From Hydrogenophaga intermedia (GTDB taxonomy: Bacteria; Pseudomonadota; Gammaproteobacteria; Burkholderiales; Burkholderiaceae_C): a DNA stretch of 64,000 nt. Shown here in pieces: positions 17,864 through 52,023 of this stretch; position 1 is the stretch's first letter, and every line of letters starts with the position of its first letter. The position numbers and the translations under genes were made by a program. Under the pieces are notes generated by a model, which was not told where the DNA came from, made no database searches, and worked only from the letters and a program-made list of their open reading frames with translations. The stretch covers positions 45,501 through 109,500 of the forward strand of contig NZ_CCAE010000011.1 in assembly GCF_000723405.1 (NCBI RefSeq). The letters are read 5' to 3'.

Positions 17864-17939
17864 AAATTCGCCCCAACAGCCTGTGGCAAACTCCCGCGCT
17901 TCGTGAAAGAGCAGCCCCTGATCCGGGCCCGGGAGACCC

Positions 17940-20273
<2,334 letters not shown>

Positions 20274-39351: not shown

Positions 39352-39471
39352 GCGCGGCTCCGTGGGTTCGATGTCTGACCTTCGGTGTCCTTGGGGGTAT
39401 GGACAGGCGGCGTTGGGTAACGGCGTTTTGATCGAGGGTTCACGATCTGCACATCTCAAATAGTTCTACGA

Positions 39472-39483
39472 TGTATATTATGT
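39472..39483. other. attL, dif-like core
   Basis: TGTATATTATGT here continues as TAACC. It equals the central hexamer (TGTATA) plus the XerD arm of the dif consensus (TTATGTTAA). The outward (XerC-side) 11 nt, 39461-39471, match dif poorly. It is the left member of the 12-bp direct repeat that bounds the prophage. Confidence 0.75.
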
Positions 39484-39529
39484 TAACCAGGCTGCGCGGC
39501 CGGTTGACGCTCATGCCGGTGGCCGCCTG

Positions 39530-39649
39530 ATGCTGCGCGCGCTGCTGCACCTGGCCCGCGCCCTGGCCCTCACCCCCCTGGGCTGGTCCATCCTGGCGCT
39601 GTGCTGGGTTCTCGTCTTCGTGCTGGCGGCCGTGGCCGCCTTGTCCTAA
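39530..39649 (+). CDS. Small prophage membrane protein (39 aa)
   Basis: MLRALLHLARALALTPLGWS start followed by a single hydrophobic helix, ending AAVAALS. Its ATG (39530) overlaps a TGA that is in frame with the regulator only when the element is circular (see attL/attR finding). Thus in the excised genome it would be the gene directly downstream of the repressor. Function unknown; a superinfection or lysogeny membrane factor is one possibility. Confidence 0.6.
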   Translation: MLRALLHLARALALTPLGWSILALCWVLVFVLAAVAALS

Positions 39650-39679
39650 AGCCGCGGCTCAGCCGGCCGACATCCTGTC

Positions 39680-40033
39680 ATGTTCCGCGCGCCTTCGGCT
39701 GCTGGTCTGCCGCCCTTCGCCTGGCTGCTGCACGACCAGCAGGCGGCCCGCCCGCATGTCGCCCGGCATCTTGGCCTGTCCACACGCACGCTCGCGCGCT
39801 ACGAGGCCACGCAGCAGGCGCCGCGCGCCGTCATGCTGGCGCTGTACTGGGAAAGCCGCTGGGGGCGCTCTGCGGCCGACGCCGAGGCCGCGACAGCCGC
39901 CGACGTGCACCGGGGCCATGCGCAGGCCCTGGCCAACGAAAACGCCGCCCTGCGGCGGCGTATCGCGGTGCTGGAGCGGGAATTGACCCAGGCCCAGCCC
40001 GAGGCTGCGAACTTGCCTTTCTGGCGCGCCTGA
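39680..40033 (+). CDS. Helix-turn-helix protein with C-terminal coiled coil
   Basis: 117 aa. A helix-turn-helix-like segment at about residues 22-50 (HVARHLGLSTRTLARYEATQQ) is followed by a leucine-zipper-like helix (ALANENAALRRRIAVLEREL). Probably a small dimeric DNA-binding regulator of the prophage. It is convergent with the late operon; the stop codons are adjacent (40031-40033 and 40034-40036). In the circular form it is third in a repressor - small membrane protein - HTH row. Confidence 0.7.
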   Translation: MFRAPSAAGLPPFAWLLHDQQAARPHVARHLGLSTRTLARYEATQQAPRAVMLALYWESRWGRSAADAEAATAADVHRGHAQALANENAALRRRIAVLERELTQAQPEAANLPFWRA

Positions 40034-40153
40034 TCAGCGCTTGGCCTTCGCCTTCACGATGCGCCCGCCCTTGGCGTAGCGAAAGCCCTTCTTCAAGCGG
40101 CCTTTGCCCTTGGTGGCGGCGGACTTGCTCACCGCGCGTTTCTTCGTTGCCAT
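40034..40153 (-). CDS. Tiny highly basic protein (39 aa)
   Basis: Begins MATKKRAVSKSAATKGKGR; 15 of 39 residues are Lys or Arg and there is no acidic residue. Such proteins bind nucleic acid or sit at the membrane-DNA interface in virions. The start overlaps the preceding stop (ATGA). Last gene of the late operon. Role in genome condensation is inference. Confidence 0.65.
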   Translation of the reverse strand: MATKKRAVSKSAATKGKGRLKKGFRYAKGGRIVKAKAKR

Positions 40154-40317
40154 CACGTTGCTCCAGGTGGTTGCGCACCGTCCCACTGCCGCTTGATCCA
40201 GGCGCGCACGCCGGGCAGTTGACCGATGACGAGGGCGGCCAGCAAAGCGCCGGCCAGGACGATGACGGCCTCGCGGCCGACCTCGGGGACTGAGGGGATG
40301 ATCTTGCGCACGCTCAC
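40153..40317 (-). CDS. Small membrane protein (54 aa)
   Basis: Starts at GTG 40317 inside the previous stop (GTGA). A single hydrophobic helix (EAVIVLAGALLAALVIGQL) is followed by a basic segment (RAWIKRQWDG). It fits a virion membrane protein or lysis accessory protein of the tailless phage. Not similar to anything I recognise. Confidence 0.6.
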   Translation of the reverse strand: MSVRKIIPSVPEVGREAVIVLAGALLAALVIGQLPGVRAWIKRQWDGAQPPGAT

Positions 40318-40457
40318 GGCTTGCGCTCCAGATGGGCCACGCGCGTTTCCAGGCGGTCCACGTCCGCGCGCAACCAATCGAGCTTGGTGGACACCACGCC
40401 CCACATGACGGCCCCGTTCACCAGGGCCGTGACCGCGATGCTCACCAACTGGCTCAC
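40314..40457 (-). CDS. Small membrane/coiled-coil protein (47 aa)
   Basis: GTG start at 40457 overlaps the stop of the holin-like gene (GTGA). The N-terminal half is hydrophobic (SIAVTALVNGAVMWGVV) and the C-terminal half is a heptad-like helix (LRADVDRLETRVAHLE). The shape recalls small spanin-like or virion membrane proteins. No family assigned. Confidence 0.6.
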   Translation of the reverse strand: MSQLVSIAVTALVNGAVMWGVVSTKLDWLRADVDRLETRVAHLERKP

Positions 40458-40621
40458 GGCTGCTTTTTCTCAGGCAGCGCGATGGCGGCCAGGCCGGTGA
40501 CGCCCAGCACGACTTGCGCGATCAGGTCCATGGTGCCGGGCGGCAGGCCGAAGACGATGCCCAGGGCCGACAGGCCGGCCCAGGTCGAAGGTTCCTTGAT
40601 GCGGTTCAGAAAGGCGTGCAT
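40454..40621 (-). CDS. Holin-like two-helix membrane protein (55 aa)
   Basis: ATG 40621. Starts MHAFLNRIKEPSTWAGLSAL; two hydrophobic helices separated by a short turn, and a charged tail PEKKQP. The start NRIKEPSTWAGL and the two-helix form resemble phage proteins often annotated as holins. It lies in the same operon as the transglycosylase, so a lysis role is reasonable; it could also be a capsid-membrane protein. Confidence 0.6.
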   Translation of the reverse strand: MHAFLNRIKEPSTWAGLSALGIVFGLPPGTMDLIAQVVLGVTGLAAIALPEKKQP

Positions 40622-40624
40622 GCG

Positions 40625-40915
40625 CTAGCTCCAGAGGTAGTTGAGGAAGTCCTTCGCAGGACAGGAGAACGACGCCGCCCAGGTGTTGCCCGCCTCGCGG
40701 TCAAGCTGGCATTGCGTCTTGTTGGTGGCCGGGATGCCCACCAGTTCACCGATGCCGACGACAGCGCCCGAGGCGGTGCCGTCGATGAAATCGACCGCGG
40801 CTTCACCGAGGCTTGCGCCCACGCCGCGCGCGCCGCCCTCGCGCGTCATGGCCCACACCAGCGCGAGCAGCACGGCGCCGGCACCCACGATGTAGACGGG
40901 AGACACGCGCACCAC
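40625..40915 (-). CDS. Small membrane protein (about 96 aa)
   Basis: Start taken at GTG 40915, just after the stop of the upstream gene; GTG 40912 and 40906 are alternatives. One N-terminal hydrophobic helix (VYIVGAGAVLLALVWAM) is followed by a Gly/Ala-rich amphipathic region and a C-terminal part with two cysteines (QCQLDREAGNTWAASFSC). Probably embedded in the internal virion membrane by analogy with PM2. Function unknown. Confidence 0.55.
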   Translation of the reverse strand: MVRVSPVYIVGAGAVLLALVWAMTREGGARGVGASLGEAAVDFIDGTASGAVVGIGELVGIPATNKTQCQLDREAGNTWAASFSCPAKDFLNYLWS

Positions 40916-40916
40916 G

Positions 40917-41183
40917 TCAGGCCCCCGCGCCCGGCGCCTGCCAGACCATCTGCCCGTTTTGGTAGTAGTTTCCGCTGGGGTCGATGGCGACACCGTTTTC
41001 GAAGTAGCGCCACCCGTTGTTAAAGGCCTTGCCCGCCGAGTCGAAGATTTCATCGACCCAATCGAGCGGCTTGCCGGTGTCGCGCGGCGCGTTCACGCGC
41101 GGCGTGGTCTGGCTGCGCCAGATCATGTACACGGCGATGCCGGCCAGGCCGAGAACGAGCATTTCGGTGGTTTGCAGCTTCAT
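40917..41183 (-). CDS. Membrane-anchored small protein (88 aa)
   Basis: ATG 41183. N-terminal hydrophobic helix (EMLVLGLAGIAVYMIW), then a soluble tail with aromatic residues (WVDEIFDSAGKAFNNGWRYF, GNYYQNGQMVW). Eight nt after the lysin gene in the late operon. Looks like a virion membrane protein; no family recognised. Confidence 0.6.
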   Translation of the reverse strand: MKLQTTEMLVLGLAGIAVYMIWRSQTTPRVNAPRDTGKPLDWVDEIFDSAGKAFNNGWRYFENGVAIDPSGNYYQNGQMVWQAPGAGA

Positions 41184-41191
41184 GGTTTTCC

Positions 41192-41857
41192 TCAGGCGAA
41201 GGTGCCACCGGCCGAGGCGAACACGCCTCGGGCCGTGGCAAGGGAAATGACGGGTTGACCGTAGGGCGAGCCGGGCATGCTGGCCCACTCGCGGGCGATC
41301 TTCTGCAACGCCAGATCGACGCGCCCGGCCTTGGCGTCATCGAGTGCGCCGCGCGCTGCGATGCGGCCGACGATGGCGCGATCCTGGCTTGCAGGGGTGA
41401 AGTCGGTCAGACCCATGATGCGGGCCGTCTCGTCCCACGTGGACGCCAGGAACTGGCCGGCGCCGGCAGCCGTGCTGGTGATGGGCTTGCCGCCCAGCAT
41501 GCGCGTGATGCGCTGGCGCGGGTGGTCGGCGAAGCTGGTGAACAGGCCACCGCCGAACAGGGTTCGATAGCCGTCTTCGCCCGCCGTGCCCTCGCCGCGG
41601 CGGATCACAGCCACCAGCGCGCGCACGTTGGGGTGCGCCACGTCGGCCGCCGTGACGGTGCGCATCTTGGAGAGGTCAAGCCGCATGGTGATGGTGTCGA
41701 TGATGGTTTCGGCCGCCTCGGTCACTTCCTCGGCGATGCCCTCGCCCGCTTGCACAGCGGACGCCCACAGGTCGGCCGCCTCCTGCTCGCGGCGCATGAG
41801 CAGCCAGGCGCCGGCCGCGAGCAGGCCCGCCGACGCGATGAGGAACGCAGGTCGCAT
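41192..41857 (-). CDS. Membrane-anchored lambda-R-like lytic transglycosylase
   Basis: 221 aa. A hydrophobic N-terminal helix (residues 4-19, AFLIASAGLLAAGAWLL) precedes a domain in the style of phage lambda endolysin R (GH104): VIRRGEGTAGEDGY with the likely catalytic Glu, LFTSFADHPRQ, TSTAAGAGQFL, LTDFTPASQDR and REWASMPGSPYGQ. It should cleave peptidoglycan. In PM2-like viruses such an enzyme may sit in the virion for entry as well as act in lysis; the membrane anchor suits either role. Confidence 0.85.
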   Translation of the reverse strand: MRPAFLIASAGLLAAGAWLLMRREQEAADLWASAVQAGEGIAEEVTEAAETIIDTITMRLDLSKMRTVTAADVAHPNVRALVAVIRRGEGTAGEDGYRTLFGGGLFTSFADHPRQRITRMLGGKPITSTAAGAGQFLASTWDETARIMGLTDFTPASQDRAIVGRIAARGALDDAKAGRVDLALQKIAREWASMPGSPYGQPVISLATARGVFASAGGTFA

Positions 41858-41860
41858 GGA

Positions 41861-42544
41861 TCACAGCAGGGTGTACCGTGCATGGCGGAACCAGGCGCCG
41901 CCGCCCGCCGTGCTGCTGATGAAGAACAGTCCCAAGCCCGGCGCGATGCGGCGCGGCTGCTGAAGATCGATGTTGGCGATCTGCACGGACCCCGATTGAG
42001 AGAACACCGATTGCGCGATGACATCGCCGTCACCCACCCCGGTCGGCGCGGTCGCTTTCGCTACGAAGGCCTGCACGATGGTGGCGGACGACGTTGCGTC
42101 GCTTGCGCCCGCGCTCCACAGAATGGCCCCGTTGGGGTTGGCGGCGGCATTGAACACCGTCAGCGGCGTGACGGCCGCGACCGTGGCACCGGTTGACCAG
42201 TTGTGAGTCGGCAGCACGGGGCGCATGCTCTCGTCTGCCAGCAGCACCGATCCCACCACCTGAACATCCCCCACTGGCGCCTTGTCGTAGGCCACCGTGT
42301 TGCCCAGGCGCGTGACGAACTGCACCACCTGAGTCGATGCGCTGTGCAGGCGCACGCGATCAAAGGTGCCGACCTCGAATTTCTCGGCGTAGCCCTCGCC
42401 CACGTCCACGGCTTCGGCGACCTCGCGCCCTCCGCTGTAGAACTCCAGCGTCAGCGGCCCGGCCGCCTCCAAGATGCGCAGGAAGTTGCACACGCCATAG
42501 AACTCTTGCGGCACGCCGGCTTGCAGGGTGATGGTCATCGACAT
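41861..42544 (-). CDS. Putative minor capsid/spike protein (227 aa)
   Basis: 227 aa, beta-rich by composition (many V, T, G, S; almost no Lys), with no membrane helix or signal peptide. Begins MSMTITLQAGVPQEFYGVCN and ends in an aromatic-rich strand (GGGAWFRHARYTLL). Lies among the structural genes, between the lysin and a C-terminally anchored membrane protein. A penton, spike or second jelly-roll protein is the natural guess; not established. Confidence 0.6.
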   Translation of the reverse strand: MSMTITLQAGVPQEFYGVCNFLRILEAAGPLTLEFYSGGREVAEAVDVGEGYAEKFEVGTFDRVRLHSASTQVVQFVTRLGNTVAYDKAPVGDVQVVGSVLLADESMRPVLPTHNWSTGATVAAVTPLTVFNAAANPNGAILWSAGASDATSSATIVQAFVAKATAPTGVGDGDVIAQSVFSQSGSVQIANIDLQQPRRIAPGLGLFFISSTAGGGAWFRHARYTLL

Positions 42545-42546
42545 GG

Positions 42547-42963
42547 TCAGCCCTTGCGATTCACGAAGTAGAAGCCGGCCACCACCGCCACGACGACGGC
42601 CAGCACGATGATGGTTCGCTGATCGAGCGCCCCCGACTTGTCGGCCTCGGCCTGCGCGTAGGCATCGGCCACCGACTTCTGCGTTTGGCCGATGAGGCTC
42701 TGCCCCTGCGTGAAGATGTTGTGCGCCGCATCGATCAGGTCGGCGTAGCCCTCGCCCAGGTTGGCAATGGACAGGTCCACCGTATCGAGGCCGCGCGACA
42801 CCAGCCCGCCGTCGGTGATCTGCACCGCGTTGCCCGCGCCGCTGATCCCCACGGAGCCCGCCGTGACGCGGTTGTCTTCGCTGGTGTTCGCGCTCTTGGA
42901 ACTGCCCCCGATGCAGGGGCAGTGATGGCCCAAGGCCTTGCGCTTCAACTCGTAGACGTTCAT
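42547..42963 (-). CDS. Structural protein with C-terminal membrane helix (138 aa)
   Basis: 138 aa from ATG 42963. The N terminus contains CPCIGG. A polar central part (SIANLGEGYADLIDAAHNIF) is followed by a strong C-terminal helix (IIVLAVVVAVVAGFYFV) with a basic tail. The tail-anchored form fits a protein linking the capsid to the internal membrane. Its start overlaps the GNAT-like gene stop by 4 nt. Confidence 0.6.
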   Translation of the reverse strand: MNVYELKRKALGHHCPCIGGSSKSANTSEDNRVTAGSVGISGAGNAVQITDGGLVSRGLDTVDLSIANLGEGYADLIDAAHNIFTQGQSLIGQTQKSVADAYAQAEADKSGALDQRTIIVLAVVVAVVAGFYFVNRKG

Positions 42964-43337
42964 GGCTTGATGGCCTTCACCAAAACGAACCCCGCGCCCA
43001 CGGTGCGCGTGATCCGGTATCCGTGTTTCTTCGCTCGGCGCACCAGGCCACGGCGCACCGTCTGAAAGCCCACCAGGCGACAGCCGCGCGCCAGCGCCTG
43101 GCACTCCACCGCATGCAGGCCCTCGGCCGTCATGCCCTGCCCCTGCCCCGCAGCCGCGTGAATCCAGCCCACGCCGTCAACGAAGGACACCGACAGGAAC
43201 AGCCGGCCGCAGGCGGTGCACAGTTCGAAGCACTCGCCGGCCGCCGCCGCGCCTTCGGGGGTTTCGACGCCCTCGGGGTCCAGGCCCGCGCAAAGCGCGA
43301 AGGCCTGCGCAGCCTGGTCCCGGGTGGTCGGCGTCAT
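42960..43337 (-). CDS. GNAT-like small protein (125 aa)
   Basis: 125 aa. The second half (GWIHAAAGQGQGMTAEGLHA, RLVGFQTVRRGLVRRAKKHGYRI) looks like the end of an acetyltransferase fold, with a phage-type FxTxRxGLxRxAxxxGY pattern. The first half has two Cys pairs (CFELCTACG). Similar proteins occur in small tailless and filamentous phages, role unknown. Overlaps both neighbours by 4 nt. Confidence 0.5.
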   Translation of the reverse strand: MTPTTRDQAAQAFALCAGLDPEGVETPEGAAAAGECFELCTACGRLFLSVSFVDGVGWIHAAAGQGQGMTAEGLHAVECQALARGCRLVGFQTVRRGLVRRAKKHGYRITRTVGAGFVLVKAIKP

Positions 43338-43534
43338 TTCTTGCGCTTGAAGTAGCTGACCGCGATCAACGCGCCGACCAGCAGCACCGCATAGGGCAGG
43401 TACTGCGCCATGTCGCCGCTGCCGCCCGTGTTCACGCCGCCAGAGCCGAAATTCACGACCCAGCCGCTGGAGTTGGCCGCCGACGAGGCGTTCGAAGGAC
43501 CGCCGCCGCCTGCGCTGCCGCTGATGGGCATCAT
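43334..43534 (-). CDS. Gly/Ser-rich protein with C-terminal membrane helix (66 aa)
   Basis: 66 aa. A flexible Gly/Ser/Asn-rich N-terminal half (GSAGGGGPSNASSAANSSG) is followed by one hydrophobic helix (YLPYAVLLVGALIAVSYF) and a basic end RKK. Tail-anchored virion membrane protein type. No family assigned. Confidence 0.6.
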   Translation of the reverse strand: MMPISGSAGGGGPSNASSAANSSGWVVNFGSGGVNTGGSGDMAQYLPYAVLLVGALIAVSYFKRKK

Positions 43535-43538
43535 GGGC

Positions 43539-43778
43539 TCAGTCCTTCAGCGCGAAGACCGCCACGACGGCGCCCAGGGCCAGCAGCACCACCACGCCCG
43601 GGCTCATGCCGAACATGGTCTGCGGTGCCACCGTCTGCGGCTGTCCTTCGTTGTAGAGGCCGAGTTCACCCAGCGCCTGGAGCCGCAGTTTCTGCAACTC
43701 ATAGGGCTGGGTGAACTTGGCGTCAGCCGCCTTGTTCAGCAGCGAACTGCTGACGTTTTGGAACCACTCTTCCCACAT
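43539..43778 (-). CDS. Small protein with C-terminal membrane helix (79 aa)
   Basis: 79 aa from ATG 43778. Soluble N-terminal half with amphipathic helices (WFQNVSSSLLNKAADAKF), then a C-terminal hydrophobic helix (GVVVLLALGAVVAVFAL). It lies 15 nt after the capsid gene. Likely a capsid-associated membrane protein; in PM2, small membrane proteins lie beneath the P2 shell. Confidence 0.6.
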   Translation of the reverse strand: MWEEWFQNVSSSLLNKAADAKFTQPYELQKLRLQALGELGLYNEGQPQTVAPQTMFGMSPGVVVLLALGAVVAVFALKD

Positions 43779-43793
43779 GGGGCGGCCCTCGCT

Positions 43794-44621
43794 TTACAGG
43801 TTGCCCAGCGGGTCGAGGTACTCCACCAGCACCGTGCCGGAGCCCGCGCCCGAGAAGTCGAGCAGGAATTCCAGCGACTTCGCGTTGCGGGTGTCGAGCG
43901 CCTTCTTGATGTTGCCATCGAGCACGAAATCGATGGTGTAGACGTTGGCCTGCGGCACGCGCTTGGCCTTGGTCTGGTCGAAGCTGTTTTCAGCGGCCAC
44001 CGATTCGTGGATCACCAGGCCGTCTTCCTTCATGGTCGCGCCGGTCACGGTGCCGGTGTGGAACACGTGGATGCGCTTGATGATGGAACCGGTGTTGCCG
44101 AAGGGCAGGTTCACTGCCAGGCGGCCACCGGTGGACTGACTGAACGGGTAGCTCAGCAGTTTGCTGATGAGCGCAGCGAACGGGGCCGCCGCGCCGTCGC
44201 GGGTCTTCTGCTGCGCGCTCTCGATCAGGATCGGCGTGATCACCGGGGCGGTGGCGCCCGCAATGGTGACTTCGCTGGTGATGTTGGCGATGCCCTGCGA
44301 GGTGTCGAAGGCGCCGACCATGCGGTCAAGCTCCGCGATCATGGAGTAGTCCGCGAACTGGATGTCGAGGAAGGCGGCGGCGGTGGACTCGCCGCGATAG
44401 GCGTTGATCGCGTCCAGTTGGGCGCCCGTGGCCTCAAGAATCACCTTGCCATTGGCCTTGAGCTTGAGCAGCGAAATCATGGCCTTGGTGAGGGCCGTGC
44501 CGCCCAGCTTCAGGCGCAGGTTTTCCAGCGTGCGCCCGGGCGTGACCTGGTTGGTGGCGGTGCCGCTGGGCACCACGTTGGAGAAGGGCAGGCCGTAGCG
44601 CGTGAGTTTTCCGACGGACAT
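43794..44621 (-). CDS. Double-jelly-roll major capsid protein (PM2 P2-like)
   Basis: 275 aa (PM2 P2 is about 269), with no signal peptide or membrane segment. Rich in beta-strand-like stretches separated by loops. The C-terminal part has the pattern YTIDFVLDGNIKKAL then LEFLLDF and VLVEYLDPLG, which from memory closely follows the end of PM2 P2 (YTIDF-L-G ... EIIVEY). The first third has GRTLENLRLKLGG and VILEATG, again with P2-like spacing. The protein would form the trimeric capsomers around an internal membrane. No other capsid candidate of this size exists in the element. A structure prediction would settle it. Confidence 0.82.
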   Translation of the reverse strand: MSVGKLTRYGLPFSNVVPSGTATNQVTPGRTLENLRLKLGGTALTKAMISLLKLKANGKVILEATGAQLDAINAYRGESTAAAFLDIQFADYSMIAELDRMVGAFDTSQGIANITSEVTIAGATAPVITPILIESAQQKTRDGAAAPFAALISKLLSYPFSQSTGGRLAVNLPFGNTGSIIKRIHVFHTGTVTGATMKEDGLVIHESVAAENSFDQTKAKRVPQANVYTIDFVLDGNIKKALDTRNAKSLEFLLDFSGAGSGTVLVEYLDPLGNL

Positions 44622-44657
44622 GGTTGTTCCTTGGTGGTCAGAGGGTGGCGGCAGCGC

Positions 44658-44810
44658 TTACAGCACTTCGCGGATGTAGGGCGTGCGGCGCGCGACGGCC
44701 ACAGCCGCGACGGCCACGGCACCGGCCTTGCCGTAGGTGCCGCCGTACTTCCAGGCGGCAAAGGCGATGGCGGCGGCAATGCCGTACTTCATGAGGGTGG
44801 CTTGGTCCAT
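44658..44810 (-). CDS. Small membrane protein (50 aa)
   Basis: 50 aa from ATG 44810 (a longer frame upstream is not needed). Begins MDQATLMKYGIAAAIAFAAW and continues as Ala/Gly/Val-rich hydrophobic sequence with a basic end. First gene after the internal terminator and upstream of the capsid gene, so it may be the first gene of the late unit. Probably a virion membrane protein. Confidence 0.6.
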   Translation of the reverse strand: MDQATLMKYGIAAAIAFAAWKYGGTYGKAGAVAVAAVAVARRTPYIREVL

Positions 44811-44903
44811 TGCGAACGATCCTTGAGGGTTGGTGCAGGTACACATGGGGTTGGTCGCCGCGCTCGGTGACGCCCTGCGCTTGCGTGGCCTCAATTGCAG
44901 GCG

Positions 44904-44925
44904 AAAAAAAACCGCCCGTGGGCGG
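44904..44925 (-). terminator. Intrinsic terminator inside the prophage
   Basis: On the minus strand the stem CCGCCC/GGGCGG (44912-44925, 2-nt loop) is followed by eight T (44911-44904). It lies between the packaging ATPase gene and the capsid block. It should therefore separate the early/replication transcript from the late structural one, or reduce read-through into it. Confidence 0.75.
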
Positions 44926-44960
44926 CTGTAACCGGTACGGGGACCGGATGGCTTCTGCGA

Positions 44961-45569
44961 TCAGAAACGGAGCTTGCCGGTGGTGATTTGCTTGGTGAGC
45001 CGGTCAGCAATGACGAACTCCAGGGGCTTCAAGGCGCCCAGCTTTTCCACCGGGATCATGGTCTTGCGGTTCATGTAGAACACGTCCTCGCCGCCCATGG
45101 CAAAGCACACGTAGCGGGTGGCGTTGCCGATCGCCGTCTTGTCGGCCTCGGCCCAGCGCTGCGAGATGGCATAGATGGTGATCCCGCGCTTGAGCCCGCG
45201 GCGGATCAGGATGCCCCAATTGCCCGGGGCCTTGCTCGGCGTCGTCACGTCGGCCAGTTCCTCGGCGATGGCGTCGAGCGGTTCCACGTAGCGGCCCGCG
45301 TACATCACGCACCCGCACCAGAAATCGAACTCGGCCTTCAGGTCGCCCCCGGCCACGTAGGCGATGCGCTGCGCCCCGCCCTTCTTCGCCCACTCCAGAA
45401 GCTGCGCGCGCGTCGTCACCTTGCGCCAGCCGGGCAGCGCCGCCCACTGGTCTTCAGGGTCCCATGCCCACACTCGTCGCCTCGCCTTGACCTGGCGCGC
45501 GGTCCACGCGGTTTTGCCAGAGCGCGAGGCGCCGCTGATGACGTTCAGTTCGCCGTCGATGGTCTTCAT
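44961..45569 (-). CDS. Genome-packaging ATPase (PRD1 P9 / PM2 P9-like)
   Basis: 202 aa. Walker A GASRSGKT at residues 13-20; an acidic Walker-B-like stretch LDAIAEELADV near residue 100; a downstream ITIYAISQRWAEADK with the sensor Gln/Arg typical of FtsK/HerA-type packaging ATPases. It is only about 200 aa and lacks the C-terminal membrane helix of inovirus Zot proteins, which argues for the tailless icosahedral class. It would translocate DNA into a preformed capsid. Overlaps the upstream gene by 4 nt. Confidence 0.8.
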   Translation of the reverse strand: MKTIDGELNVISGASRSGKTAWTARQVKARRRVWAWDPEDQWAALPGWRKVTTRAQLLEWAKKGGAQRIAYVAGGDLKAEFDFWCGCVMYAGRYVEPLDAIAEELADVTTPSKAPGNWGILIRRGLKRGITIYAISQRWAEADKTAIGNATRYVCFAMGGEDVFYMNRKTMIPVEKLGALKPLEFVIADRLTKQITTGKLRF

Positions 45570-46129
45570 TGGACCGGCCCGCTTCCGAAGGTCACGGCCG
45601 GCCCCGTGCGCTCGGGCGCGGGCGGCGGCGCTGGCACGGGCGCCGCGATGTCGATGCCCTGTTCCTTCGCCGTCGCTTCAATCGGCCGGCGCTTCTTCCA
45701 CTCGGCCAGGTCCGCGCTAACGCCGTTGTAGGTGGCCCAGGCCAGCGGCCCGACGACGGCCACGCAGGCGATTTCCGCGCCGTACTGGCCCATTAGCCCA
45801 TCGCCCAGCCATCCATGCTTCTCGCACAGCGCGCCGATGGCCCCGGACGCGGCGCCGATGGCCTCGGGGGTGTAGATGGTCTTCAAGCTGGGCAGCGCGG
45901 GCGACAGCACCGCGACCACCATGCCCATGAGGCCCGCGATTTCCTCTTGCAGGGTCGGCCCCTTCGGTTCCTGTTCCTGCGTGGCGAGCGCCTGACCTGG
46001 CGCCCCGCCCTGCCCCGCCGCCGCTTCCAGCGCCGCCAGGTCGGCCGCCTGTTCGTCGCTGGCCGGCGCCTCGCCGTTGGCCGCAATGTCACGCTCCACG
46101 GCCTGCGTGTTGGTATTGCTCGGCCTCAT
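45566..46129 (-). CDS. Prophage membrane-associated protein (187 aa)
   Basis: 187 aa from ATG 46129. Acidic, Ala/Gln-rich N-terminal 65 residues, then hydrophobic segments (GLMGMVVAVLSPALPSL; EIACVAVVGPLAWATY), a basic KKRR and a Pro-rich tail. Sits directly before the ATPase with a 4-nt overlap; it may be an assembly or membrane-targeting factor. No family recognised. Confidence 0.65.
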   Translation of the reverse strand: MRPSNTNTQAVERDIAANGEAPASDEQAADLAALEAAAGQGGAPGQALATQEQEPKGPTLQEEIAGLMGMVVAVLSPALPSLKTIYTPEAIGAASGAIGALCEKHGWLGDGLMGQYGAEIACVAVVGPLAWATYNGVSADLAEWKKRRPIEATAKEQGIDIAAPVPAPPPAPERTGPAVTFGSGPVQ

Positions 46130-46455
46130 CGCGCACCCCCTGCCATGAAGTGCAACGCGTCGGCCAGGCCGGTGCGCTTGGGTGCTGCGGGCGGCGGCGG
46201 GGGCTCCGCGACCGGGGCCGGCGCAGCAACGGGCGCGGCCGGCGCGGGCGCAGGCGCCGCAGTGGCCAGCCGCTTCGCGTGGTTGGCTTCGAACAGCGCC
46301 ACGCGCTCGGGGTCCGGCCCGACGCGCAACTGCTGGCGGCACGTTGCGGTGCAGAAGCCGAACGGGTCGCCGTTCTTGTCGCTGGTGATCCGCATGCCTC
46401 CCGGCGTGCCGCAGGAGGGGCAATCGATGTAGCCCCGCACGACCTTATCGGACAT
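46126..46455 (-). CDS. Zinc-ribbon protein with Ala/Pro-rich tail (109 aa)
   Basis: 109 aa. The N-terminal zinc ribbon has CPSCG ... CTATC spaced as two ligand pairs; after residue 65 it is a Pro/Ala linker and a short C-terminal helix (TGLADALHFMAGGAR). Possible nucleic-acid-binding protein of the replication module. Overlaps neighbours at both ends. Confidence 0.65.
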   Translation of the reverse strand: MSDKVVRGYIDCPSCGTPGGMRITSDKNGDPFGFCTATCRQQLRVGPDPERVALFEANHAKRLATAAPAPAPAAPVAAPAPVAEPPPPPAAPKRTGLADALHFMAGGAR

Positions 46456-46648
46456 GGTTGCGCTCCAACTCGGACACCTTGAACTTGCGCGTCTCGTCCA
46501 CGGGCGCGTCGTCCTTCACGCCCTGCACGCGCACCGTGGCCCAGCCGCCCGCCACGCCCGGGTGGCGCTCCTGCACCACGCCCACCATGCCGGCCAGGTC
46601 GCCCGCTTTCACGCGCGCCACGTCATGCACCTTGAAATCGTCCTTCAT
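46445..46648 (-). CDS. KOW-like small protein (67 aa)
   Basis: 67 aa. FKVHDVARVKAGDLAGMVGVV resembles a KOW/SH3-like beta strand, followed by WATVRVQG. Its 5' end overlaps the methylase gene by 26 nt and its 3' end overlaps the zinc-ribbon gene by 11 nt, showing how compact this module is. Function unknown. Confidence 0.6.
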   Translation of the reverse strand: MKDDFKVHDVARVKAGDLAGMVGVVQERHPGVAGGWATVRVQGVKDDAPVDETRKFKVSELERNHVR

Positions 46649-47414
46649 GCTCTACCCCTTCCGTTGGCCCCCCGGCCCTCTGAAGCACTTCACCGTCGCC
46701 CTCGGCGGTGGGATCCCACCGCCGGGCGTGCAGGTGCTGCAGCACCTGCAAAACTGCCGTCTGTTCGTGGGGCCCCATCGCCGAAAACTTCGCGGCCCAG
46801 CGCTGCGCCTTGCGCTTGATGCGCTCGCGGTCGCGGTAGTCGTTGCCGGCGAACTGCACGTCATGCAGCGCCACGGCGGCGGGGTCATAGTTCATCCACA
46901 GCGTCTCCGTTGCCACGCCGCGCCGCGTCATGGCCTGGAAATCGTGCTGGTGCGCCTCGCGCAAGCTGCTCGCATCGTCATAGAGCGCGCAGCGGTAGCC
47001 ACTGAGCATCCAGCGCACACCTCGATCTGTCATCGCCGGAAGCAGCGAGCCCACCAGGTGCCCATGGTCGGCATCGCTCATTTCGAACCGGTACAGGTCC
47101 ACGTCCTTTCGCGCCTGGTGCACGTAGGGCGGGTCCAGATACACGAACCAGCCATCACCCATCGCCGGCAGCAGCGATGCGAGCTCAGCCAGCGCATCGA
47201 CGTTGCGGACGATGGTCGACGGCCTGGCCAGCACCGCCAGCTTTGCCGCCTGCTCGGGATCTCGCTCCATCAGGATTGACGATGCCGCCGGCTTGAGGCG
47301 CCGGTAGATGGCCGCGCTGCCCGCGAACGCTTCAACAAAGGTGGTGCACGCCGGCGCGCGGTTGATGATGGTCTGAAAGACCCCTGCCCCGTTCTTGCCG
47401 CCCTGGTACCGCAT
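46623..47414 (-). CDS. Dam-like DNA adenine N6-methyltransferase
   Basis: 263 aa. MRYQGGKNGAG and FVEAFAGSAAIYRRL form the AdoMet-binding motif X-I region, and DPPYVHQARK is catalytic motif IV (DPPY). It should methylate adenine in a short palindrome on phage DNA, for protection or control of replication. Two nt after the initiator gene stop. The C-terminal 40 residues are charged and overlap the next gene. Confidence 0.9.
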   Translation of the reverse strand: MRYQGGKNGAGVFQTIINRAPACTTFVEAFAGSAAIYRRLKPAASSILMERDPEQAAKLAVLARPSTIVRNVDALAELASLLPAMGDGWFVYLDPPYVHQARKDVDLYRFEMSDADHGHLVGSLLPAMTDRGVRWMLSGYRCALYDDASSLREAHQHDFQAMTRRGVATETLWMNYDPAAVALHDVQFAGNDYRDRERIKRKAQRWAAKFSAMGPHEQTAVLQVLQHLHARRWDPTAEGDGEVLQRAGGPTEGVEHEGRFQGA

Positions 47415-47416
47415 CG

Positions 47417-49555
47417 TCAGACCTCCACCGCCGTCGGCGGCGATGCCCAGTTGAAGAACCGCCCCAACTTGCGCCGATGGGTGTTCACAACCCCGAACAG
47501 GCGCGGCCCCGTATCCATGTGCCGCCGATCCAACGTGTCGAGCGTTGGCGTCGGCGTGCAGTTATTGACACGGGTCCAAGGCGGCAGCGCTTCGCGCAGC
47601 CGCGATGCGGCCTCCCGCTCTTGCTGTAGCCGTTCCAGGCGCGCGGCCGTCTCCTGCGCGGCCCTGGCGTCATGCGCGTGAATGAGCCCTTGCAGGCGCG
47701 CGCAGTGGGCCTCCACCGCGTCCAGCGCCCCGCCCTTGCTGATGACGATCCACTCGGCCCGCTCGGACTCAATGACCGTCTGCGCCGGGCTGCGGAAGTG
47801 CCCGCCCAGGCCGCGCGCCGCGATGTGGGCCGGTGCGGGTACGGATACGGAGCCCAGGCCCTGCACGCCCAGCACGCGCGCGGGCGACGGCTCCCCGTAA
47901 CTGTTGGCCGCCTCGCGCTCCACCCGGTACAGGCGCACGGCCTGCCGCGCGCGCCGGCACGTTGGGCCGCCCTGCGCCATGGTGTAGCGCTGCCAGGCCA
48001 GGGCCTTGCGCTCACCCGGCTCCACCAGTTGCAGGTTTACCGCCCGGGTGGCCTGGCGCAGGTTGTCCGCCGTCTGCTCGGCCTCCATGTGCTCGGGGTG
48101 CAGCCGGCGCAGTTCGCGCCACACCGTCACGGGCGGCCCGCCGATCTGCTGAAACTGGCGGATGCCCCACACGCGCGCCCAGGTGACGACGGCGGCCGTC
48201 GCCTCCACGATCGGGTTGCCATACAGGTCGTATTGCATCGCGAAGCCGTCCACGCCCTTGGCTATGTACTTCGCGATGTAGCCGGCCGCGCTGCCCTTCT
48301 CCCCGTCGATGGCCTTGATCTTGACGCGCCGCTCCCGGGCGCCCTTCTCGTCCGGGCTGTCGTTCTCTAGGAAGTAGCGGCGCAAGCCGTCATCGAACAC
48401 CGGCACCGCATCGGTGGGCACCTTGCACAGCTTGCGCATCTCCACGCGCTCCGTCATCGGCGCGAAGAAACACAGAATGTTCCAGTGCGGGGTGCCATCG
48501 TGGTGCGGCTCCGTGGTGCGAAAGCCATAGACCCGCAGGCCCTCGCGCTCCCAATGGGCGCACAGCCGGCGCCACTGCGCTGCCAGGTACTGCTGCGCCT
48601 CGCGCGGCCGGGTGCCGTCGTACTTCCGGTTTTCCACCACCTTGCCGCTGTCCAGGTGGGTGAACCTGTGCATGCGGCTGGGGCAGGTGAGCACGGCCCA
48701 GCGCTTCACGTGGCCCAGGGCATCGGCGCAGGCTTCGAAGCCAGCAACCCGCGTCATCAACTCGCCGCGTCGGATCACCGGATTGGCGACGGACTTCTCT
48801 GCGACGGCCGCCAGGGTCATTTCCTGGCCGTGGTCGTTGACGGCCAGGGTGTGCGCCAGCATGGCCGCGTTCGCGCGCTGGCGCTCGGCGTGCACCTTGC
48901 GCGACTCGGCCGACACGTAGCAGTCGGCGCGCGCGTGGACCAGGCCCAGGCCGATTGCGCAGACCTCCACGGTGCGCGCGTGCACGCGGCGGAAGACCTT
49001 GCGCCAAAACTTCTCGTCGCGCAGGCGCGCCAGGCGCCCCGCGTCCGTCATCGTGGGGCCGTCGGGCCACAGGTCCAGCAAGCCGCGCCCGGCCATCACC
49101 GTGCGCGAGAGGCGCCGCTTCAACTCGGCCAGGCAGCGGGCCAGGTACTCAGCGGGCATGTGCGCCCAGCGCTGGCGGTACTGGCCGTCTGCGCTGGCCT
49201 GCATGTCGCCATGGTCGCGGGCCTCCTGCCTCGCCAGCTTGCACAGGTCGGAGTCGCCCATGCTGGGCGCGATGCCCACGCGGCGGCCCGCCTCCAACTC
49301 CGACAGGCGACGACTGAGCCACATGTCGGCCGGCCCGTGGGTGGCGCCCCTGTCGGCCAGGGTCTGCGCGTGCTTTCGCCACTCGCCCACCATGCGCGCG
49401 GCCCACCTCGGCGGCAGCAGCTCCAGGCGCGGCGCGGCCCAATGCGGGGTGCGCGCGCTGTAGTCCTCCACGACCGGCGCGCGCGCGGCTCCGGTGTAGC
49501 CGGCGACGTTGGCGAAGGGGCCGATGTGGGCGGCCTTGGCGCGGGGCTTTTTCAC
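47417..49555 (-). CDS. Rolling-circle replication initiator (phage GPA / PM2 P12 type)
   Basis: 712 aa from GTG 49555, whose start overlaps an upstream stop (GTGA). The metal-binding HUH-like string PHWNILCFF is at about residue 360. The paired catalytic tyrosines YIAKYIAKG are at about residue 425, the superfamily I arrangement of phiX174 A, P2 A and PM2 P12. It nicks the plus origin, stays bound through tyrosine and ligates the displaced circle. The C-terminal 200 residues are charged and poorly conserved. Replication by this route needs a circular template, in line with the proposed excision. Confidence 0.92.
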   Translation of the reverse strand: MKKPRAKAAHIGPFANVAGYTGAARAPVVEDYSARTPHWAAPRLELLPPRWAARMVGEWRKHAQTLADRGATHGPADMWLSRRLSELEAGRRVGIAPSMGDSDLCKLARQEARDHGDMQASADGQYRQRWAHMPAEYLARCLAELKRRLSRTVMAGRGLLDLWPDGPTMTDAGRLARLRDEKFWRKVFRRVHARTVEVCAIGLGLVHARADCYVSAESRKVHAERQRANAAMLAHTLAVNDHGQEMTLAAVAEKSVANPVIRRGELMTRVAGFEACADALGHVKRWAVLTCPSRMHRFTHLDSGKVVENRKYDGTRPREAQQYLAAQWRRLCAHWEREGLRVYGFRTTEPHHDGTPHWNILCFFAPMTERVEMRKLCKVPTDAVPVFDDGLRRYFLENDSPDEKGARERRVKIKAIDGEKGSAAGYIAKYIAKGVDGFAMQYDLYGNPIVEATAAVVTWARVWGIRQFQQIGGPPVTVWRELRRLHPEHMEAEQTADNLRQATRAVNLQLVEPGERKALAWQRYTMAQGGPTCRRARQAVRLYRVEREAANSYGEPSPARVLGVQGLGSVSVPAPAHIAARGLGGHFRSPAQTVIESERAEWIVISKGGALDAVEAHCARLQGLIHAHDARAAQETAARLERLQQEREAASRLREALPPWTRVNNCTPTPTLDTLDRRHMDTGPRLFGVVNTHRRKLGRFFNWASPPTAVEV

Positions 49556-49737
49556 TGCGCGCCTCGGTGGCAGTGGTGTGTCCGCCCGGCTACTTTCCGC
49601 ATTTTCCGGGCTGCATTCCTTGGTCGCTCACTCCCCGATGCCGGGGTTTCGCCGCACCGCATCAGTCTGTCTGCCGCCGGCCGTTCATGACGGACGGGCC
49701 TCCAGTCATGGGGCGGCCACACCGCTGCCACTGTCAC
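49552..49737 (-). CDS. Possible small gene upstream of the initiator (61 aa)
   Basis: GTG at 49737 overlaps the upstream stop and its own TGA (49554-49552) overlaps the initiator GTG, so both junctions are GTGA as elsewhere in this operon. The product is basic and has Cys/His residues at the C terminus (RTHHCHRG). Composition is not strongly protein-like. The same stretch holds a candidate replication origin, so it may be only partly or not coding. Confidence 0.4.
   Translation of the reverse strand: MTVAAVWPPHDWRPVRHERPAADRLMRCGETPASGSERPRNAARKMRKVAGRTHHCHRGAQ
49557..49572. other. Candidate rolling-circle origin (nick site)
   Basis: GCGCGCCTCGGTGGCA, immediately 5' of the initiator gene. 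From memory it resembles the P2 origin core (GCGCCTCGG before the nick) used by a related initiator. Position and likeness are the only evidence. Confidence 0.35.
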
Positions 49738-49904
49738 CGCGCCCCCTGGCCCTGCTCGGCCACGCGGCGCCACTGCGCATCCCACGCGGCGCGGATGTCG
49801 GCCGGCAGCTTGTCCCAGCCGGCCGGGCGCGGCCAGGCCATCAGACGCGGCCGATGCTCGGCGGGGATCAGCACCCCCGTGGCTGACTGGCGCCAGGCCG
49901 TCAT
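49734..49904 (-). CDS. Small prophage protein (56 aa)
   Basis: ATG 49904 overlaps the upstream stop (ATGA). Begins MTAWRQSATGVLIPAEHRPR; Trp- and Arg-rich (GWDKLPADIRAAWDAQWRRVAEQG), without membrane helix. Early-region protein of unknown function. Confidence 0.6.
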   Translation of the reverse strand: MTAWRQSATGVLIPAEHRPRLMAWPRPAGWDKLPADIRAAWDAQWRRVAEQGQGAR

Positions 49905-50245
49905 GCTGCCCGCCTGCAACCGATACAGCCGCCCAGGGCGCCGGAACACTCGCCCTCGGGGTAGTTGCAGCCCGAGGCGGCGCAGGCCGTGCGCTTCACC
50001 ACGGCCAGCGGCGCCGCCTTGATGCGCAAGGCGCTGGCGATGCCCTCGGACACGCGGTCCGCCGCGATGCCGGCCGCCTCGGCGGCTTGCTCCAGGCCGA
50101 ACAGCAGCGCGCCGGTCTGGTCGGGCGTGAGCACGTCGCCCGCGACGACGACGCCGGCCAGCGTCACGTCCACGCGCACGCCCTTGCCGGGCGCCGGTTG
50201 CACGACCAGCGCGCGGCCGGCCGTGAGCTTGATGGTGGTTTTCAT
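49901..50245 (-). CDS. Early prophage protein with C-terminal cysteine cluster (114 aa)
   Basis: 114 aa. The first two-thirds are beta-rich (VRVDVTLAGVVVAGDVLTPDQ); the C terminus has CAASGCNYPEGEC...CIGC, likely a zinc site. Starts in overlap with the upstream gene. No family recognised; a DNA-binding or replication accessory role is possible. Confidence 0.65.
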   Translation of the reverse strand: MKTTIKLTAGRALVVQPAPGKGVRVDVTLAGVVVAGDVLTPDQTGALLFGLEQAAEAAGIAADRVSEGIASALRIKAAPLAVVKRTACAASGCNYPEGECSGALGGCIGCRRAA

Positions 50246-50463
50246 GCCGGCACCCCGCGCGGTGTGCCGATGCGGCGCTCGGCCGCCATGCGGCGCAGCT
50301 TGTCGCCGGCCCGCCCGGGCTTGCCCGGGACGCGCGAGCGGCCGAGGCCGCGATGGTCGTAGCCCTTGAACGGCGCCGGCTGCGCCAGCCGCACCGACTC
50401 GGCGAACGGCACCGCGCTGGCGGCCACCAGGCCAGCGAGTGCCGCGAGGAATCCGCCCCTCAT
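50242..50463 (-). CDS. Small basic early protein (73 aa)
   Basis: 73 aa with an N-terminal hydrophobic stretch (GGFLAALAGLVAASAVPFA) that could be a signal or membrane segment, then an Arg/Lys-rich tail. Two nt after the first early gene and overlapping the next. Unknown function. Confidence 0.55.
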   Translation of the reverse strand: MRGGFLAALAGLVAASAVPFAESVRLAQPAPFKGYDHRGLGRSRVPGKPGRAGDKLRRMAAERRIGTPRGVPA

Positions 50464-50465
50464 GG

Positions 50466-50702
50466 TCAGATCGCCGCCGTAAGGATTTCGGCCTTGCCCT
50501 CGGCCTCTTCCAGCGCCGCGCGCAGGCGGCGCGACTGGTCGGGCGTGAGGTGGAAATCGAAACTCATCGGCCCGCTGTTGTGCGACAGGACGACGACGAA
50601 CGGGTCATCCTTCTTTTCGCTGCACTGGCCGACGGCCGCGACCCTGAGTTGCCCTTGGTGCTCGAAATGGCCCGTGAGCCGGGCAATCGTGAAACTCGAC
50701 AT
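50466..50702 (-). CDS. First early prophage gene (78 aa hypothetical)
   Basis: 78 aa from ATG 50702 (an in-frame ATG at 50717 would add five residues). Mixed alpha/beta: FTIARLTGHFEHQGQLRVAA, FDFHLTPDQSRRLRAALEEA. It is the promoter-proximal gene of the minus-strand early operon, facing the repressor across the operator region, so it is probably the first gene expressed on induction. Confidence 0.65.
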   Translation of the reverse strand: MSSFTIARLTGHFEHQGQLRVAAVGQCSEKKDDPFVVVLSHNSGPMSFDFHLTPDQSRRLRAALEEAEGKAEILTAAI

Positions 50703-50805
50703 GGAACCCACCTTCACCCCCCCTGCCCTCTGAAATCGAAGGCGCCGGGCACGGTCCAGAAGGTGGGGGGATGATGAGAAACCGCCCCGGCGCGGGACGG
50801 ATGGT

Positions 50806-50850
50806 ATGGCAAGCCATTGCCACAGGCAATCGGATTGCCATAGGGCAACC
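50806..50850. promoter_or_regulatory. Prophage operator: nested TTGCC/GGCAA inverted repeats
   Basis: ATGGCAA (50806-50812) pairs with TTGCCAT (50835-50841), and inside them ATTGCC (50816-50821) pairs with GGCAAT (50825-50830) across ACA; a further GGCAA is at 50844-50848. Five copies of one half-site in 45 nt, in the gap between the repressor and the divergent early operon, is the expected layout of a phage switch operator. Confidence 0.65.
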
Positions 50851-50922
50851 GTTTACACATACGGCGTACCCTTACCGTTACAGGCCCTCGGAGGCCCTCT
50901 CAACCCCTATCCGAAACGGAGG

Positions 50923-50979
50923 TTATCCACATGGCCGCAAGCATCGCCGCTCTACTGGACAAGGCAAAGGTTATCCACA
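50923..50979 (+). promoter_or_regulatory. Two consensus DnaA boxes at the repressor start
   Basis: TTATCCACA occurs exactly at 50923-50931 and 50971-50979, same orientation, 48 nt apart. The first spans the repressor ATG and follows its GGAGG ribosome-binding site (50919-50923). These are perfect matches to the strong DnaA box and could couple repressor expression or phage replication to the host initiator. Confidence 0.6.
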
Positions 50980-51236
50980 AGCTGCCCAGCGACTACAAGC
51001 TGGCGCTCGTAATGGGCGTCAGCCACCGGTCGGTTGCCAACTACAGGGACGGCAAGACCCTTCCCGACGCTCGGGTAATCCGGTTGATTTGCGACCTGAC
51101 TGGTGATGACCCCGCGATTCTGGCGGCCGAGGTCGAGGAACAACGCGCCACCACGGACGAGGCGAGAGCCCTCTGGCACCAAGTTGCACAGCGCCTTCAG
51201 CAAGCCCGGGCGACGAACGGTCTGTATATTATGTAA
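50931..51236 (+). CDS. Prophage repressor (HTH, DUF3693-like)
   Basis: 101 aa in the integrated state. Cro/CI-type helix-turn-helix: PSDYKLALVMGVSHRSVANYRDGKTLPDARVIRLICDLTGDDP style, with the DUF3693-like end (EEQRATTDEARALWHQVAQRL). Divergent from the early operon, so it is the likely lysogeny repressor. The last codons (Leu-Tyr-Ile-Met-stop) lie in the attR core. When the ends are joined the frame continues for 15 codons and stops in overlap with the 39-aa gene start. Confidence 0.82.
   Translation: MAASIAALLDKAKVIHKLPSDYKLALVMGVSHRSVANYRDGKTLPDARVIRLICDLTGDDPAILAAEVEEQRATTDEARALWHQVAQRLQQARATNGLYIM
51223..51234. other. attR, dif-like core
   Basis: Second copy of TGTATATTATGT, followed by AAATA. 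Matches the dif centre and most of the XerD arm. It overlaps the last codons of the repressor gene, whose stop TAA begins with the last base of the repeat. Confidence 0.75.
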
Positions 51237-51467
51237 ATATAAGAATGTGGTGGCCCACGCTTGACCTTGACACCGCCGAGACAAGCAAAGTTGTAATGCT
51301 CAAGACCAGTAAAGTTGTTAACGGGTCGACTGAAGCTTTCACGATACTCCGCTGCTGAAGTCATTGCTAAGCACTTGACAAGTGGCACCAGAGGCCGCCG
51401 GCACCCGCTGCCCCATTGGCAGACCAGCCTCAACTTCCGAGCCGACGGTCCTTGGAACGGCCTGGAT

Positions 51468-51739
51468 GGCTACCGAGGGTAAATCTGTTCACTTTTCATC
51501 CCAAAATCAGTTCCACGGCGCGCGTCGTCGAGCGAATGGCCACCATAGGAATAGATTTCGATGAGGTAGCGTCTCTCTGAACGGAATGGCGTTTGGTGGC
51601 CATACCGAGAACAAGATCCAAGCGCTTGGCGAGCATGGGCACGGTGTCTCTCTCATACCGCCGCCAAAAACTGACGGTATTGCTGGTGCTATCGCTGTTC
51701 GACAACGTGCGCATCCTGTAATGCGCTCGAGCTGTCGAG
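51468..51739. repeat. 270-bp direct repeat, copy 1
   Basis: Begins GGCTACCGAGGGTAAATC and ends near the CTCGAG-containing stretch. Copy 2 starts 285 nt downstream with only scattered substitutions and a 1-nt deletion. No intact gene spans it; short minus-strand frames suggest the tail of a lost gene. The 51237-52533 interval holds this pair and no gene I can support. Confidence 0.75.
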
Positions 51740-51752
51740 TGCTTCGTACGGT

Positions 51753-52023
51753 GGCTACCGAGGGTAAATCTGTTCACTTTTCATCCCAAAATCAGTTCCA
51801 CGGCGCGCGTCGTCGAGCGAATGGCCACCATAGGAATAGATTTTGATGAGGTAGCGACTCTCTGAACGGAATGGCGTTTGGCGGCCATACCGAGAACAAG
51901 ATCCAAGCGCTTGGCGAGCATGGGCACGGTGTCTCTCTCATATCGCCGCAAAAACTGACGGCATGGCTGGTGCTATCGCTGTTCGACAACGTGCGCATCC
52001 TGTAATGCGCTCGTGCTCTCGAG
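51753..52023. repeat. 270-bp direct repeat, copy 2
   Basis: Near-identical to copy 1, diverging after GCGCTCG. Just past its end the minus strand could encode a hydrophobic fragment (VVQAVCVAIMAAVIIWLKLY), probably debris of a small membrane protein gene. Confidence 0.75.

Follow-up and report, generated by a model that had tools for sequence, protein, structure and literature searches.

A Vinavirales-type tailless prophage of Hydrogenophaga intermedia lies between two dif-like sites and was probably inserted by host XerC and XerD

The 64,000-nucleotide stretch of Hydrogenophaga intermedia contig NZ_CCAE010000011.1 analysed here (the window) contains, at positions 39472..51234, a compact 11.75-kb set of open reading frames (ORFs) flanked by two sites resembling dif, the site of chromosome dimer resolution. 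Judged by its genes, the element is a prophage of a tailless virus of the order Vinavirales type, within a group dominated by viruses of betaproteobacteria. We assign a probability of about 0.9 to the reading that a prophage with Vinavirales-type capsid and packaging genes lies between two dif-like cores, where host XerC and XerD would have inserted it. This reading is based on the gene content, a P2-type capsid sequence, a P9-type ATPase, a GPA-type initiator, and ends that can be read as dif half-sites. Tailless viruses of this sort are already known from related bacteria, so that the docking mode is more interesting than the virus: the integration mode at dif is what the analysis adds, and the virus itself is a further member of a known sort. 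An earlier note on this DNA, which proposed a new, distant member of the PM2-like viruses, overstated the novelty. PM2-like prophages mainly of Betaproteobacteria were printed in 2022 as Vinavirales clade D (PMC9502842; papers with PMC numbers are cited here from excerpts of their text), and 979 protein clusters in the database match the window capsid at E <= 1e-3.

The pattern TGTATATTATGTWAA, with at most one mismatch, has two matches in the 5,288,135-base host genome, TGTATATTATGTTAA at window position 39472 and TGTATATTATGTAAA at 51223, and a control pattern has 0. The left junction (39461..39488, plus strand) consists of the host XerC arm TAGTTCTACGA, the centre TGTATA, and the phage-side XerD arm TTATGTTAACC, and is predicted from its sequence to function as dif in the lysogen. 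The right junction (51212..51239, plus strand) consists of a degenerate phage-side XerC arm GACGAACGGTC, the centre TGTATA, and the host XerD arm TTATGTAAATA. The exact TGTATATTATGTWAA pattern was sought in 60 genomes, including that of the host, and is present in 30. Among 35 congeners, it occurs once in 23, is absent in 12, and occurs twice in none; of 24 genomes from the same order, six contain it, one of them (G039) twice. The congener sites mostly conform to TTCYACRA-TGTATA-TTATGTWAA. Of 29 dif loci compared, 10 have adjacent homology to the tctA-type gene (PF01970) that lies left of the element; in five of these 10, the match is 80-90% over 627-1431 bases (89.6% over 1431 bases in G022). 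Comparison with the dif of G022, ACATTCCACGA-TGTATA-TTATGTAAATATAAG, indicates that the XerC arm on the left and the XerD arm on the right are those of the host. The phage, then, brings the XerD arm TTATGTTAACC plus GACGAACGGTC, which is unlike a XerC arm.

A Pfam scan of the 27 ORFs of the element identified no integrase or recombinase and no portal, terminase, or tail family, in agreement with the earlier note, which had listed the last three as missing. In a PHROGs scan of ten of these ORFs, the ATPase family carries the name 'terminase large subunit' and the second match of the lysin the name 'tail fiber protein/lysozyme'; we take these names to denote families of P9-type ATPases and of lysozymes. 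Because no integrase was recognised, host XerC/XerD probably inserted the element. The host genome encodes XerD (357 bits, above the cut-off) and a XerC-like protein (320 bits; cut-off 335). By sequence, the element has the features of integrative mobile elements exploiting Xer (IMEX), namely, no integrase of its own and a predicted insertion at dif with a dif-like phage attachment site (attP). It resembles in this respect the IMEX of Vibrio cholerae (three classes of Xer-exploiting phages, CTX, VGJ, and TLC) and the gonococcal island (GGI), which use host XerC/XerD at dif and have no integrase of their own; however, the attP of these elements is described with a XerC arm, whereas that of the window element has a XerD arm (PMC4246890, PMC5357621). 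If true, a XerD-arm attP would be a fourth mode of Xer hijacking, and the mirror-image attP, if working, a natural test of which Xer recombinase needs tight binding for hijacking. We found no description of XerD-arm elements in a literature search that included excerpts of PMC5357621, PMC9765430, and PMC4246890, and do not claim their absence from print.

The viral genes that carry the identification were confirmed at the positions given in the earlier note: a 275-aa capsid gene, a 202-aa ATPase, a GPA-type initiator, a lysin, and many small ORFs. The major capsid protein (43794..44621, minus strand) belongs to the P2 family by sequence and fold. Modelling recovered a PM2-like double jelly roll; a relation to FLiP was considered and rejected, FLiP being a weaker match than PM2 and not the nearest fold. 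The packaging ATPase (44961..45569, minus strand) lies next to the capsid gene and is assigned to the P9 type, not the Zot type, by matches to PM2 P9 and NO16 P9, with no inovirus protein matched. Neither outcome that the earlier note named as refuting it, another capsid fold or an ATPase of the inovirus Zot group, was thus encountered. As noted earlier, it lacks a membrane helix: the Walker A motif GASRSGKT is present, and no hydrophobic segment was detected. The 712-aa initiator (47417..49555, minus strand) matches Phage_GPA (PF05840, 1.3e-62) and PM2 P12 (probability 100 over 534 columns). Of the motifs ascribed to it, YIAKY and HHDGTPHW can be read, but the strict HxH pattern is not at the expected place. 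An initiator of GPA/HUH type might instead belong to a satellite or inovirus-like Xer-using element with filamentous-type replication, and filamentous phages that integrate at dif are known (PMC4246890). The P2-type capsid and P9-type ATPase argue against this, as do the Pfam and PHROGs scans, in which the ATPase matched no Zot/pI family (and no Pfam family at all). With such scans and a PM2-like capsid fold, we rejected the inovirus/Zot reading, which has next to no probability.

The place of this Vinavirales-type prophage among tailless viruses was analyzed in a capsid tree of 25 rows with a midpoint root, the reading of which is limited by the long branches of Jorvik, PE002B, and two capsids from G063. 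The window capsid pairs with that of a Hydrogenophaga metagenome-assembled genome (100/99) and forms, with 11 close relatives, one group (93/97; seven betaproteobacterial genomes and four IMG/VR contigs of unknown host). PM2, GXT1010, NO16, VruC, Jorvik, and the autolykiviruses all fall outside this group. PM2 and GXT1010 form a group of their own (99/91), and a 97/99 branch separates them from the window rows, which lie on the same side as the autolykiviruses and four others; NO16 and VruC (Asemoviridae) are likewise across that branch from the window. Four autolykivirus rows and D526 form a separate group (94/93) without the window, and the Jorvik capsid, with a branch length of 7.37 and deviating composition, is of unsure placement. 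In this tree, the element thus groups with none of Corticoviridae, Autolykiviridae, and Asemoviridae nor, as far as the unsure Jorvik row can tell, with Jorvik, and it possibly represents its own genus or family. Membership in Corticoviridae, the family of PM2, which the earlier note had favoured, would account for the P2 fold, the P9 ATPase, the P12-type initiator, and the PM2-type gene order (P12, P13/P14, h, P9, P7, P2, P3, P4/P8, j, P1, P5, P6, k, l; the small genes were equated with PM2 names by position), and PM2 carries a dif-like site, with an intact XerD arm, that was previously described (PMC9966536). However, PM2 and GXT1010 group apart from the window capsid, and a tblastn search with this capsid retrieved 22 Vibrio phage records at E 0.01 without PM2 among them, which makes such membership very improbable. 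The three best profile matches of the window lysin, each with a probability of <=1, do not include PM2 P5. The PM2 genome is a circular double-stranded DNA near 10 kb; the window prophage measures 11.75 kb. The present families of Vinavirales and nine signature genes common to their members are given in PMC12451628; of these genes, major capsid protein, ATPase, helix-turn-helix (HTH), and GNAT-like genes were recognised here by profile and the remainder by position only.

The best 120 of the 979 capsid matches have 74-100% identity, and many are on contigs whose longest reach 10-12 kb; among the matches listed, three are named 'major capsid protein P2' (two from Hydrogenophaga and one from Polaromonas). 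One scan of contigs from one genome per species yielded eight loci, in Hydrogenophaga (two tandem copies), Comamonas, Lacisediminimonas, Propionivibrio, Nitrosospira, Massilia, and another betaproteobacterium. The capsid gene is carried by 9 of the 399 host-family genomes sampled (8 of 141 genera) and by 3 of 67 genomes of the host genus, the host itself counted in both. The integrated PM2-like element in a beta-proteobacterium that the earlier note described is borne out, the host sharing its GTDB genus with the uncultured Hydrogenophaga genome mentioned above. Three scans of IMG/VR gave nine related contigs of 9.6-11.8 kb, six of them with terminal direct repeats, so that members of the group probably exist as free circles. 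These relatives bear on the alternative that what lies at dif is a remnant, decayed or domesticated, in which virus production has been lost. The poor XerC arm of the right junction, with which excision may be rare, is compatible with that alternative. Conversely, capsid and ATPase are full length compared with L002 and L003, two contigs resembling free circles (alignments cover 275 of 275 and 202 of 202 residues), and the element has most of the late and structural families known from the clade; the ORFs being free of internal stops is no evidence against decay because they were listed on that basis. Overall, we regard a remnant as unlikely.

For the prophage inserted at dif, the ends can be compared across relatives. 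Seventeen flanked elements were available: those of the window, L008, L009, L010, L012, L013, and G013, two in G063, and those of eight other genomes from the family survey; L011 and a 3.5-kb contig (C6) of G124 have no flanks and stand outside this set, and the tandem copies in G013 were counted once. A dif-like site is located at the late-gene end in 16 of the 17, and this end is clearly the better of the two in 14. Nine elements are XerD-type, with the site on the strand opposite the capsid gene (window, L008, L009, L012, G195, G124, G261, G150, and G063 element 1); they share the centre and XerD arm with their other end, except for G063 element 1, which has no clear partner. Seven are XerC-type, with the site on the capsid strand (L010, L013, G013, G313, G063 element 2, and, weakly, G442 and G269), and share the XerC arm and centre between their ends. 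A site matrix applied to the eight survey genomes placed the best site at the late-gene end in seven, with scores of 10.0-28.6 (G124 tied with the other end); in a shuffle control, the best of five per region scored -2.0 to 9.6 (4.8 for G124, the weakest). The centres found are TGTATA, TCTATA, TCTGTA, TTCACA, TGTGTA, and TGCATA, the same at both ends wherever a partner was found. With a complete site at the late end, the strand dictates the arm type; what does not follow automatically is the late-end position of the better site and the use of both strands.

The closest counterpart with the other polarity is in the uncultured Hydrogenophaga genome NZ_OY288119 (G013), where two tandem 11.2-kb copies, differing at 6 of 11,243 compared positions, have the same kind of site. 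These prophages resemble that of the window in gene order and in capsid (79%) and initiator (81%) identity but differ in their tandem arrangement, in having no match to the D12 methyltransferase, and in the attP, ATTCCACGA-TGTATA-GCGGGTTGAC, which keeps the XerC arm, lacks the XerD arm, and has the opposite orientation. In most of the 10 contigs without host flanks (nine from IMG/VR and L011), the attP is hard to discern. A clean XerD-type site is seen in L108, next to the HTH gene and on the predicted strand; L002, L043, L044, and L109 contain exact, short XerC-arm words on the predicted strand; and no exact arm words were found in L003, L111, L112, and L011.

Several points weigh against the proposed identity and insertion of the element. 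Integration, excision, the particle, and its inner membrane are all predictions. The host XerC match lies under the model cut-off of 335, which only 2 of 14 control genomes pass. P3, P7, P8, the spike, and the late proteins are assigned by position, their profile matches to PM2 being <=24% (gp j), and the spike model is poor (predicted local distance difference test score, pLDDT, 67). Among the relatives, G123 has no dif-like site in the matrix search; L008 and G124 have no good XerC arm at either end, so the complete site is not clearly at either; and G261 and G150 have an unusual XerC arm at the late end. The partner half-sites of G442 (3 of 15 mismatches) and G269 (4 of 15) are weak, and the outer site of G063 element 1, missed by the partner search, is visible only at 4 of 15 mismatches. 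The query of that search included the centre, so that the agreement of centres is partly built in. Finally, the exact XerC-arm word of L110 is on the strand opposite to that predicted, contrary to the pattern.

We see an even chance that dif is a two-sided dock, in which an attP with a XerC arm settles the XerC side and its mirror image with a XerD arm, as in the window, settles the XerD side. The late genes point at dif in both modes, so that insertion would leave one complete dif and virus transcription would run with the replication fork. Two unrelated viruses could then share one dif. In G063, two distinct PM2-like prophages face each other head-to-head, one with a XerC arm and the other with a XerD arm (L054, G063 C72, 2100-19999, continuing into L055); their capsids have 25% and 36% identity to that of the window. 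The one dif-like site found in that genome (<=2 mismatches) separates the two prophages and, if the two-sided dock is true, would be assembled from one half-site per virus. The comparisons indicate that PM2-like tailless phages settled repeatedly at the chromosome-dimer-resolution site of Betaproteobacteria.

Other dif loci contain additional material. In L009 (Lacisediminimonas), GNAT-like, spike-like, and late-gene homologues occur at 16000-19900 on the opposite strand past the dif-like site, which suggests another prophage lying head-to-head with the first. L008 has the att-flanking HTH gene once more past the outer junction, which suggests a tandem neighbour prophage. In G039, a genome of the same order, two dif cores lie on the same strand at a distance of 7.9 kb (L038, G039:C1:3509228-3517149), possibly marking another element at dif.

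Insertion at dif has precedents among tailless viruses. The excerpt of PMC9502842 calls the integration mechanism of Vinavirales prophages unclear except for one gut group; a few tailless Vibrio prophages inserted at dif are reported (PMC11630473); and a dif-like site of PM2 and a proposed dif-based integration of NO16 are in print (PMC9966536). In the published PM2 site, the XerD arm is better preserved than the XerC arm; as sequence, then, a XerD-type site is already in print. In the excerpts examined, we found no discussion of the polarity of the dif-like attP. Of the literature searches by name for tailless Burkholderiales prophages, some returned nothing and others led to papers cited here. 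NO16 (Asemoviridae) is similar to the window element in its proposed dif-based integration (PMC9966536) and in P2, P9, HTH, and GNAT-like genes but differs in a capsid only 26% identical, in having no match to the GPA initiator, and in a dif-like site that reads as a XerC arm followed by a poor XerD arm. Jorvik (Mestraviridae) is likewise temperate with a dif-like attP (PMC10589892) and has a P9-type ATPase (probability 98); its capsid gene is 987 nt compared with 828 nt in the window and is not among the three best profile matches, and its record contains an M15 peptidase and a different replicase.

The remaining genes were compared among 22 elements, including that of the window. Capsid and ATPase families are present in all 22, and the GNAT-like, ORF h-like, spike candidate, and 142-aa families in 21 each; this wide conservation argues for real genes rather than chance ORFs. 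From the right junction inward, an HTH regulator (50931..51236, plus strand; PHROG 638, NO16 gp06-like, probability 98), the end of which overlaps the junction, is followed on the minus strand by ORFs of 83 aa (50466..50717; 2 of 22 elements), 73 aa (50242..50463; window only), 114 aa (49901..50245; 8 of 22), and 71 aa (49734..49949; 3 of 22). Beyond the initiator, also on the minus strand, lies a D12-class adenine DNA methyltransferase (46623..47414), absent from the 21 other elements and from five further IMG/VR contigs and hence probably a recent accessory gene. Next come a 67-aa ORF (46445..46648) with a weak KOW match (0.0038, below cut-off) and a 109-aa ORF (46126..46455) in the place of PM2 P13/P14 with a weak zinc-finger match (0.0055, below cut-off). 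A 208-aa ORF with one hydrophobic segment (45566..46192) occupies the place of PM2 ORF h, and a 53-aa ORF (44658..44819; 13 of 22) that of P7.

Downstream of the capsid gene, all on the minus strand, are predicted membrane proteins of 79 aa (43539..43778; place of P3) and 66 aa (43334..43534; place of P4/P8; NO16 gp17, probability 70), a GNAT-like protein (42960..43337; NO16 gp16, probability 88; PHROG 610 at 9.5e-4), and a 169-aa protein with a C-terminal hydrophobic segment (42547..43056; place of gp j). The spike (P1) candidate (41861..42544) has a well-modelled N-terminal beta domain and a poorly modelled, variable C-terminal part; its identification by structure was rejected, the best PDB match (E-value 1.7e-3) being an unrelated enzyme, and it is retained as a positional candidate only. 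An extra gene follows the spike candidate in L043, L044, and L008, with what we take to be a tail-collar-like motif, and suggests exchange of receptor-binding parts among relatives. The endolysin (41192..41857) matches PHROG 90, and the membrane anchor proposed for it corresponds to an N-terminal hydrophobic segment; the betaproteobacterial phages of clade D are described with a T4-lysozyme-like endolysin (PMC9502842). Late ORFs follow of 123 aa (40917..41288; 12 of 22) and, each with a hydrophobic segment, 142 aa (40625..41053), 55 aa (40454..40621; 12 of 22), 47 aa (40314..40457; 2 of 22), and 83 aa (40153..40404; 10 of 22). About ten membrane proteins with one or two helices had been claimed: 11 of the 27 ORFs have a Kyte-Doolittle segment >1.6, but one each, so that "one or two" is slightly generous. 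A 50-aa lysine-rich ORF (40034..40186, minus strand) and a reading frame of Vibrio phage NO16 are 79% identical across 33 residues, despite the capsids being just 26% identical.

Two plus-strand genes adjoin the left junction: a 39-aa hydrophobic ORF (39530..39649) and a 117-aa HTH-like protein (39680..40033) with relatives in the same place in 11 other elements. In 12 of the 17 flanked elements, an HTH-like gene on the opposite strand is no more than ~220 bp away from the dif site at the late end, and that of the window is a candidate regulator of integration or excision. Its assignment as a Xer-activating factor was not adopted, the iterated search having drifted into the other HTH gene and the Pfam HTH matches being weak.

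In the life cycle that we propose, the phage DNA is presumably circular, and the GPA initiator would nick the circle and start rolling-circle replication. Virions of Vinavirales are icosahedral and have an inner membrane; accordingly, the ATPase would package DNA into a capsid with an inner membrane built with the small membrane proteins, and the anchored endolysin and small late proteins would lyse the cell. In lysogeny, the attP, with the centre TGTATA and a XerD arm but no XerC arm, would recombine with dif via host XerC/XerD. The late-gene end would then have a complete dif and the opposite end a poor one; the HTH genes next to the two junctions are possible regulators of this process.

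Just right of the element and outside it, two tandem copies of ~280 bp (51467-52025) are 95-98% identical. About 9 kb right of the prophage, a tyrosine-recombinase-like gene (60420-61487; 355 aa; XerC model 40.6 bits) possibly belongs to another mobile element.

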